64,000 nucleotides of DNA from Pontederia crassipes (lineage: Eukaryota > Streptophyta > Magnoliopsida > Commelinales > Pontederiaceae), in NCBI GenBank assembly GCA_030549335.1, contig CM060186.1, forward strand, positions 20,141,189 through 20,205,188, given 5' to 3'. The position numbers and the translations under genes are program-made. Under the pieces are notes generated by a model, which searched no databases, was not told the DNA's origin, and saw only the letters and a program-made list of their open reading frames with translations. Positions within the stretch are counted from its first letter, which is position 1. Every line of letters begins with the position of its first letter. This document shows positions 51,001 to 53,904 of the stretch, one piece after another.

Positions 51001-53904
51001 GATTAATCTTTTTATGTATCAGGGAATCAAAAGGTGCAGTCTAATTAAGTGCTAAGTAATGGAAAAGCTCTAGTAATTTTCACATAATATTTTTATTCAT
51101 TTTCTGCCTCACATTTTCCCCAATCAATTAAGGTAGCGTGAGGACCATAAAAAATGACAAGGTTGATAGTATGAACTCCATTCATTGAGGATAAGATTTC
51201 CGATTTTTTCTTGTTTGAGTATGAGATATGATGCTACGTAGTAAATTTACCTTGATTCTCATTGGTTTTCTTGAAATATATAAGCAGAGCAACACAAAGT
51301 AGAAGAAAACCAAGGGCAGATGGAATGATTATTGCCAGAAGAGATTTCTTATGACTAGATTTGCTACCCATGGAGCCTGTCAAAGAATTGAAAGCATTAG
51401 AACTTCCACTAAATGCCACTCACCAAACTCCATAGTAATGAAAATTATCTCCATGCAAAAGGAATTTATTTCTGCAAAACAGAAACAAGTTTTATTGGCA
51501 TGTCAAAATTCTTTCTTTTGGTAGACTTTGGGCACAGTTTGAGTATACCCTCCAGCCCTGAATGCTTAAAAAGTAACAAAAACTGTGTTATATTTAATTG
51601 TCACTTAACAAGGGCATCTTTAGAAACTAGATTTTCATGAAGACATTGATATATGTTAGTGGATACTGCAACATGATAGTTCCTTCTGTTTCCTGATAAA
51701 TGATACCTATGGTATCACTCTCACAAAAACTAAATGATAATCATGATTGGAGGTTGCTACAAAAATATATATGCTGACTATACATAAAACATTGCAATAA
51801 ATGATCCCTAGAGTTCAAGGATAAACACAGAATCTTAACATTCTATCAACATTAAATCTTGTGAAATCTAGCTTTAGGATATAAATCAGTGAATATATGT
51901 GTTGTTAATTGTTAAATGATAACTATGGCATCAATCTAACAGAAACTAAATGATAACCATGATTGAAACTTACGACAAGTTATTTATTGTTTAGCACAAA
52001 ATATCACTATATTATAAATTCTGTCAATAGTATATCACTATATTTATGGTCCCTATAGTTCGAGGATAGGACTCAGAATATTGTAAATTCTATCAATATT
52101 ACATCTTACATAGCCGACCCCACCTAGTGGGATAAGGCTTTGTTGTTGTTGTTGTTGTATTACATCTTACATAATTTTGATATCTTATATCGGTGAATAT
52201 ATATGTGCTCGTAAGGGTACATAGAGAAAACAATTGGAACGATTTCTTGATGTCTTAAAGACCTATATTGATCCTTGTTATTGCTTTGTGTGGTAATTTG
52301 ATGCTTGTATCAACCCTTACCTAACTCAGAAAATGGAAGCCGAACAAAAAGATCAGCACGTGCTGTCCCAACCACCTTAATGTCTAATAAATCACCAAAC
52401 CATGAAACACAACCAGTTGCTCCAAGCATAGCATATGCTGTGCATGAACAATTTTTTAAGCACCAATCTCTGCACTCATCAATAGTTTTGTTTGCATCTG
52501 CAGTAGCATTCAGCGAATCAGGCATCTTCATGCTTTTCAACACTGCAAATTTGTCTGATGAGCAATTTGAAGCTGACTTTCTCACACAACCATCTGAATA
52601 CTTCTCAGCATTCCAATTTCCAGAAGACTTAGGTACAAAGTCCTGAAGACATTTGCAAATTGGAGAGACAGATGGGTCACAAATGCTATTAGCTCCACAG
52701 AGAGCATAATGATCACATCCATTTGTTGGAAGATCATCTAAAACATTCCATGAATTGGTTGGAGAAGACCAAAAAAATAGAAAAAGAGATCCAGTGGAAT
52801 TTATAATTACTCTGAGTATATTTGAGTCATCCACTATTCTGGGAAATAAGTAGACTGCACTAGCATTTGAAACAAAGTCAACCTTATAAACACCATTTGC
52901 GATTGAAAATTTTTGAAAGTTCCATGGTCCATAGTCACGAGAGATCTTTGTAGAACCTCTCCACACAAAGATTTCTGGAACCCCACGAGTTTCTATCCTG
53001 CAATAATAGTCACCTGGAGAAGGATCATCAGCATTTTTCCATGAATTCAACTGCCATAACTTATGAGTGCCATAGTCCACCCCCAACTTCATGCCTGACA
53101 GTAAAGTGTCACCAAGATGATCAAAGCTTTGCCAAAGTACACCATTAGTTCCTCTTTCAGATAAGACGAGATTCCCCGAGTCTAACAGCCTCAAGGCAGG
53201 ATTGGTAGCATTAGATGTGTCTGTCGACCAAAGCATACTTCCTTCTTTATTGGACAGGAATAAATTCCCATCAGCGCTGAGACTTAGCATTCCAGTTCCA
53301 GTGGAGCTATTGAAAGGGGTGGCTCTATTGGCAACCCACACCACTGTCTGAACTGTAAGGTTGTAGAACCAAATTCCAAGATACCTGTTCTTTGAATTAC
53401 CAGGACTGAAGAAGCCCAGCTCAAATTTTCTTCTTTTACTGATTAAGGTTTGGCCATCCCCAAGTGTCTTGTTTGGAATTATCGTGTCTCCTGCATTGAT
53501 GAAATTGCGTATGGAAATATCAGAATATGGACAACAGATGATGTATTCCTTTGTAGTTTCTTTGGCTCCTAATGATTTGCTGCTGCAGCTGCTTCCTGTT
53601 TCTAATTTGATAGTGTTTGATGGAATCGAACAATGAAGAGAAATACCCATATCCAAATTCAGGCCAATCAACAGTCAGATTTAAAAAATTTATATATATG
53701 CACACTGTATGGCCTGAACATAAGCATCAGAACATACATAACGAACATTAAGAAACACAAGCATCAGAACATATCGATTTGATTCACAGAGCATAAATGA
53801 ACGCATCACATACCAACAGACTGGCCAAGAATAGGAGTCCTTTCTGCCATGACATGCAAGAAAAGCAACAGCAGCAGCAAGGGAAGCAGCTGTGTGAATG
53901 CCAT
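48057..53904 (-). CDS. G-type lectin S-receptor-like Ser/Thr kinase, 8 exons
   Basis: Plasma-membrane receptor kinase of the S-domain class; ligand unknown. Exons on the minus strand, in order: 53904-53814, 53490-52321, 51376-51251, 50938-50784, 50685-50475, 48910-48673, 48587-48437, 48347-48057. All introns are GT-AG and phases agree, giving 2,433 nt, 810 aa, stop TGA. Exon 1 encodes a signal peptide ([18 protein letters not shown]). Exon 2 carries the B-lectin domain ([32 protein letters not shown]), S-locus glycoprotein part and PAN domain (about residues 31-420). Exon 3 carries the membrane helix (about 431-453). The kinase (about 495-770) has [29 protein letters not shown] and GYMAPEYA, so it is an active-type RD kinase. 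The C-terminus TVLEGR is common in this subfamily. Typical relatives carry signal peptide and lectin in one exon; here an intron separates them. A 62-codon frame extending exon 2 upstream lacks a signal peptide, so I prefer the spliced start. Confidence 0.93.
48953..49157 (-). mobile_element. SINE in the long intron of the receptor kinase
   Basis: 205 bp flanked by a perfect 18-bp target duplication (48935-48952 and 49158-49175, GAATTAGTTATAATATCA). Read on the minus strand it ends TAGCCGACCCCACTTAGTGG, then GATAAGGCTTTG and (TTG)n. Its 5' part differs from the copies at 5823 and 54551, so it is another SINE family sharing the same 3' domain. It begins only about 43 bp upstream of the exon 6 boundary, in the same strand sense as the gene. 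Confidence 0.92.
49293..50137. mobile_element. MITE pair in the receptor-kinase intron
   Basis: Inverted ends: CCTTGTTTGGATAGCCCC at 49293, and TCCTGTTTGGATTGGGGG reading the right end (50137) on the minus strand. Inside, a further inverted repeat pairs about 49821-49860 (TTTTAACTTTGTTTGAATAG, then GAGAAATGGAGGGG) with about 50020-50085. Either one 0.85-kb fold-back element or an element of about 320 bp next to a related half. No coding capacity. Confidence 0.6.
52113..52157 (+). mobile_element. 45-bp SINE 3'-domain insertion with 16-bp duplication
   Basis: The insert consists only of GCCGACCCCACCTAGTGGGA, TAAGGCTT and (TGT)n. It is flanked by a perfect 16-bp direct repeat TATTACATCTTACATA (52097-52112 and 52158-52173). 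It is thus a retroposition product cut back to the conserved SINE 3' domain plus tail, in intron 2 of the receptor kinase, antisense to the gene. Confidence 0.9.

Follow-up and report, generated by a model that had tools for sequence, protein, structure and literature searches.

The insert and its surroundings

The window analysed here comprises 64,000 bp of Pontederia crassipes DNA (C4:20141189-20205188 of an assembly of 1.13 Gb in 43 contigs). At 52113-52157 on the forward strand it carries a 45-bp insert bounded by two copies of a 16-bp target site duplication (TSD), TATTACATCTTACATA, at 52097-52112 and 52158-52173 of the same strand. The two copies match exactly and lie flush with the insert edges at 52113 and 52157, and both the perfect repeats and their positions are as given in a preliminary description of this DNA. 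The insert begins with the codons GCC GAC CCC ACC followed by the stop codon TAG, which are the final four codons and the end of the open reading frame (ORF) of a LINE, and continues through a short 3' untranslated region (UTR) into a (TTG)n tail. Because the LINE has TAGCCG and the 5' TSD ends in TA, the LINE-derived length may be 45-47 bp. When the window was simulated 50 times with a first-order Markov model, exact 16-mer pairs at spacings of 30-300 bp numbered 0.02 on average and 1 at most. The real window contains 331 such pairs, most of which come from a single (TTA)n run near 58.7 kb, and the remainder from tandem repeats and from the TSDs of the 45-bp insert and of two other copies. 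A long (TTA)n microsatellite lies at 58663-58767 and a tandem array of ~89-bp units at 39007-39204, and open frames on the minus strand at 41513-43600 resemble, judged by eye, a Gypsy-type LTR retrotransposon polyprotein.

The surrounding gene is encoded on the minus strand. Its exon at 52310-53674, which encodes B_lectin, S_locus_glycop and PAN_2 domains, is located upstream of the insert-bearing intron, and a piece of a kinase exon of the same gene is found at 48768-48911. The position of the insert between the lectin-domain exon and the kinase exon places it within an intron of a gene for a G-type lectin receptor kinase, to which it is antisense. By blastn and alignment, the flanking intron sequence (unit 51905-52240, forward strand) has a diverged direct duplicate at 51690-51960. 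When both units and the joined flanks were aligned, this older duplicate showed one TSD-like stretch and no insert, and it is thus a paralogous empty site. The direct duplication within the intron (51690-52240) involves about 250 bp and aligns in two blocks at 82.6% and 80.6% identity.

The source LINE

A 20-mer of the insert, GCCGACCCCACCTAGTGGGA, occurs three times in the window with at most three mismatches (expectation in shuffled windows 0.00) and has 22,449 exact matches genome-wide (11,219 + 11,230), whereas the reversed control has none. The same 20-mer gave no stretches in viral_contigs, a 28-base pattern gave no matches in genome_contigs, and neither the sequence letters of the insert nor two short peptides matched open-access literature text. 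A full-length copy of the LINE, 3176 bp long and flanked by a 16-bp TSD, was found at G000:C1:2742701-2745876 on the minus strand. It starts with the 5' module described below and ends with the C-terminus IHVTDPT-stop-WDKTLLL, followed by (TTG)n. Pfam, run on the two ORF pieces of this copy read as they stand, identified an endonuclease (EN; PF03372, E=9.6e-08) and a reverse transcriptase (RT; PF00078 RVT_1, E=1.2e-37). The 45 bp, which had been described as the 3' domain of a SINE, are instead, by sequence match, the end of the ORF, the UTR and the tail of this abundant 3.18-kb LINE.

The LINE is assigned to the RTE clade by its EN and RT make-up, length, tail and insertion signature rather than by a tree: an apurinic-type EN and RT are combined in one ORF, the tail is (TTG)n, and the combination of T-stretch and TSD described in the next section is present. 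A C-terminal sequence that we take to be that of RTE elements was also used for the assignment. The 59-residue C-terminal peptide had 92 pattern matches in genome_contigs and 14 in viral_contigs, no relative by tblastn and no family in Pfam. Plant RTE-clade LINEs, for example RTE-1_STu and RTE-1_Mad (named in PMC3747384 and PMC9033089), share with it EN and RT, a length of about 3.2 kb, a (TTG)n tail, a T stretch roughly 10 nt before a TSD whose first base is T, and frequent 5' truncation, a likeness in described features rather than in compared sequences. All seven flowering-plant RTE families have (TTG)n or (TTGATG)n at their 3' end (PMC3747384).

Related copies, insert lengths and insertion signature

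The window carries four such 3' ends, the 45-bp insert included, and two of the others are flanked by TSDs of 18 and 20 bp. A 205-bp 5'-truncated LINE copy on the minus strand (48953-49157; 18-bp TSDs at 49158-49175 and 48935-48952) has a degraded LINE C-terminus in one frame, with two stops, which runs into ADPT-stop-WDKALLL. This copy is sense to the host gene and its 3' TSD (48935-48952) ends about 23 bp upstream of the kinase exon start, so that it might affect splicing (48911-48952). A 185-bp chimera, in which LINE nt 1-115 are joined to the LINE 3' end, is located on the minus strand at 5823-6007 (20-bp TSDs at 6008-6027 and 5803-5822), and a similarly built chimera, old and degraded, on the forward strand at 54549-54689, for which no TSD was found. 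Rfam at the gathering threshold reported no RNA family anywhere in the window, and as the window includes a chimera with the 5' module, no known ribozyme model matches there.

A sample of 345,763 bp was assembled from the window and from C1 (thirty 3-kb loci, twenty 10-kb regions and a single 1.7-kb region), all C1 sequence coming from the first 3.5 Mb of that contig; since the C1 loci were picked by exact 20-mer matches, old copies are under-represented. In this sample, blastn with the LINE gave 82 matches reaching the LINE 3' end, which a script divided into 52 chimeras and 30 LINE-only ends. Reading the short ends by hand revealed one chimera missed by the script (C1_2774000 at 8584), which raises the count to 53/82, as well as one bare TTG run among the 30 LINE-only ends and, also among these 30, one end (C1_958022) with 52 nt of other sequence between its TSD and the LINE end. 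Seventeen LINE-only ends and 30 chimeras had a TSD of at least 12 bp at the expected place, while the remaining 13 and 22, respectively, had none by the script's rule. The TSD-verified LINE-only copies of the sample measure 44, 45, 49, 74, 84, 86, 87, 93, 105 and 146 bp and, among the longer ones, 167, 205, 213, 306, 1116, 1617 and 3176 bp; the TSD-verified chimeras measure 94-218 bp. The 45-bp insert is a member of this length series with both shorter and longer neighbours, the nearest being inserts of 44 bp (18-bp TSD) and 49 bp (15-bp TSD). Tabulation of insert lengths in the sample, which had been suggested as a check, thus revealed further short copies with duplications and disposes of the objection that none might exist. 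Half of the LINE-only ends start within LINE 3076-3176 (15/30, or 13/28 once the overlooked chimera and the bare TTG run are left out), as does the 3' part of 49 of the 52 chimeras.

The 47 verified TSDs have a median length of 17 bp and start with T in 44 cases (TA in 20, TG in 16), although the first T of some may be tail-derived, because the tails end in TTG or TTGT. Upstream of these 47 TSDs the frequency of T is 0.55, 0.72, 0.72 and 0.51 at positions -11 to -8, compared with a background of 0.315. T enrichment about 10 nt upstream together with a TSD starting with T is the signature of plant RTE LINEs (PMC13295347), and the sampled insertion sites agree with the signature as published there. 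The site of the 45-bp insert itself has TT at -9 and -8, a T stretch near -10 of just two Ts. The proposal in the preliminary description that a LINE enzyme inserted the 45 bp by target-primed reverse transcription (TPRT) is borne out by these features, and its suggestion of a very early RT stop gains support from the other short TSD-flanked copies.

Chimeric copies

In the chimeras, LINE nt 1 to about 115 are followed directly by roughly the terminal 45-100 nt of the LINE, the middle being missing. Thirty-nine of the 52 start at LINE nt 1 (one via a neighbouring copy), and the junction could be placed in 50. The 5' side ends at LINE nt 110-118 in 49 of these 50 and the 3' side starts at LINE 3090-3129 in 47; extra nucleotides at the junction are absent in 44 copies and number one in five copies and 20 in one. 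Genome-wide, exact patterns matched 6,537 chimeras, or 5,410 when the gap was widened and the anchor lengthened, compared with 1,126 copies whose 5' end continues into the LINE. In two lists consisting of the first 100 matches each, which overlap, stem from the same part of C1 and are non-independent, 42 and 45 distinct junctions were counted, with Chao1 estimates of 67 and 99. Microhomology is absent at 66 of 100 listed junctions (55% for random joins), yet 4-5-nt overlaps are more frequent than expected (12 of 100 versus 2.4% for random joins), and microhomology therefore accounts for only part of the junctions. Splicing was rejected as a cause because the junctions scatter base by base and, on inspection, no constant AG precedes the 3' part. 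The 5' module was likewise rejected as a separate small RNA, since the locus L040 shows it to be the LINE's own 5' end; its 115 nt fold no better than shuffles (z 0.27).

With respect to short internally deleted elements (SIDEs), joined ends of one LINE were found in 52 of the 82 sampled ends (one more by reading), and mobilisation by TPRT is indicated by the 30 chimeras with a TSD of at least 12 bp, whereas, unlike in a family with a single junction, 37 distinct ones occur in 50 copies. The chimeras thus resemble SIDEs that apparently were formed many times. Scattered junctions with mostly 0-1 extra nt, as described for template jumping in the R2, L1/U6 and MINE systems (PMC3414825, PMC2104539, PMC6740152), are the reason why template jumping is proposed here, and by this analogy it is the most likely origin of the chimeras.

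Tentatively, we suggest that the RTE reverse transcriptase may normally work in two steps, stopping 45-100 nt into the RNA and usually restarting at nt ~110-118, so that thousands of chimeras would have been assembled anew at insertion and a short insert such as the one in the window would represent a missing restart. A fixed restart point, if true, would imply that the 5' ~115 nt form a discrete or protein-held RNA domain beside the enzyme. The competing account, to which we give somewhat less than an even chance, holds that the chimeras are ordinary internally deleted families descended from a few masters and were not formed anew at most insertions. Among 100 listed copies, a single-nucleotide polymorphism (SNP) was common to 36 of 195 same-junction pairs versus 7.1 expected, a value reached in none of 2000 shuffles, and the excess was driven by the junctions 115/3102 with 3110A (6/14), 113/3109 with 3125C (3/4) and 115/3108 with 3116C+3122T (2/3); moreover, the most frequent junctions turn up 13 or 14 times per 100 copies. 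Against few masters stand the 37 distinct junctions in 50 mapped copies and the 42 and 45 in the overlapping lists of 100, the number of differences in the 5' module, which is 5.17 for same-junction and 4.89 for other pairs (12 and 888 pairs, p=0.62), and a G/A site which taken alone showed no junction linkage (p=0.10). Linkage of junction and SNP was significant in one of three tests (p<1/2000), the other two being smaller. The excess of SNP sharing among same-junction copies indicates that some junction classes were amplified or duplicated, and probably both repeated formation and onward copying act.

Two arrangements among the sampled chimeras may be added. At L035:4474-4806 and L042:8425-8650, chimeras lie inside or adjoin other chimeras, which results in tandem or nested modules. 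The L020 chimera shares the variants TATATTTT, CCAACATAAAATCATG and TCTTATG with the 5' end of the full-length LINE (L040/L051), as expected if it derives from the lineage of the full-length copy.

Relation to known systems

Mammalian U6-L1 chimeras arise when the enzyme, while reverse-transcribing a LINE, repeatedly switches template to a discrete RNA; their LINE clade and RNA partner differ from those of the present chimeras. They are named in the R2 study (PMC3414825). The SIDEs of R2 in Drosophila (PMC3414825) and of Persaeus, a CR1 element of Lepidoptera (PMC6740152), likewise join a LINE 5' end to its 3' end; they are described as mobilised by the parent LINE, a template jump or recombination is proposed for their origin, the 5'-side break point of Persaeus is variable among elements, and SIDEs are called rare in both. 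Five R2 SIDEs are traced there to four events (PMC3414825) and those of Persaeus to at least four origins (PMC6740152), in contrast to the thousands of copies with dozens of junctions found here in one plant genome. The MINE element of Magnaporthe, composed of WEIRD RNA and the MGL LINE, also combines a fixed 5' RNA with many LINE 3' join points and TSDs, with 28 chimerization sites in 33 elements (PMC2104539); its 5' partner, though, is a separate RNA, while the present chimeras use the 5' end of the LINE itself and are far more numerous. No description of SIDEs of plant RTE elements was found in the open-access literature searched.

Origin of the 45-bp insert

Very probably the 45-bp insert arose from the abundant RTE-clade LINE, or from one of its short derivatives, by extreme 5' truncation, templates which 45 bp alone do not distinguish, as LINE RNA and chimera RNA have the 3' end in common. 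In the mechanism that we propose, the LINE protein would bind the 3' hairpin of its own RNA and nick the target, RT would copy about 45 nt and stop just past the hairpin base, the cDNA end would be joined, perhaps via a 2-nt microhomology (TA), and second-strand synthesis would produce the TSD. First-strand synthesis would mostly end in the last ~100 nt, and the product might then either be integrated as a short insert, as in the window, or be extended when the enzyme continues on the 5'-terminal ~115 nt of the LINE RNA to its end, yielding chimeras of ~170-195 bp. RNA folding predicts a hairpin at 52112-52139 of the forward strand (AGCC/CCCAC-CTA-GTGGG/GGCT) with -12.6 kcal/mol and modest z values of -2.16 for 40 nt and -3.14 for 33 nt; for 74 nt of the LINE 3' end, the predicted fold was not more stable than those of shuffled sequences (z -0.81). 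The base of this predicted hairpin coincides with the 5' edge of the insert, and 7 of the 82 sampled ends have BLAST starts at LINE 3127-3131 (plus one set at 3127 by its TSD), as against two others at 3114-3126.

That a true tRNA-derived Pol III SINE lent its 3' domain to the insert is highly improbable. A SINE could carry such an end, as the tobacco TS SINE indicates, which has ~100 3' bases and TTG repeats in common with a potato RTE LINE (PMC3747384). In this genome the upstream part of the fully read copies is either 3' coding sequence of the LINE or its nt 1-115, with no tRNA-like head, no convincing ordered pair of A and B boxes was found in three window copies with up to two mismatches, the insert is without any head, and the domain contains the LINE stop codon. 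An Angio-domain SINE superfamily with a conserved 37-bp 3' Angio-domain was reportedly defined by Seibt in 2020; according to a review, plant SINEs are mostly A-tailed. Plant introns commonly undergo small deletions, yet it is very unlikely that a longer LINE or chimera was later reduced to 45 bp with its exact TSDs left, for such a deletion would need to stop exactly at the TSD, the two other TSD-flanked inserts of 44 and 49 bp end at almost the same place, and the 5' junction resembles those made by TPRT.

The idea that the insert is the footprint of a near-minimal substrate is not supported, because insert length measures the cDNA, which alone is known to be short, and not the RNA template, and because the insert lengths form a series. 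The short insert itself is ordinary, but the LINE family to which it belongs may be a natural record of RT stop and jump sites, potentially with dated events numbering thousands in each genome, in which stops fall at the 3' hairpin base and restarts at a near-fixed 5' point. If most chimeras are independent, SINE-like elements would be mass-produced here without a master gene, and the origin of LINE-derived short elements could be tested by counting junctions. At C1_958022 on the minus strand (L018:1432-1557 reverse, G000:C1 near 961000), a 15-bp TSD encloses 52 nt of non-LINE sequence and, after it, a LINE end whose first base is that of the 45-bp insert, the 52 nt possibly reflecting a jump to another RNA.
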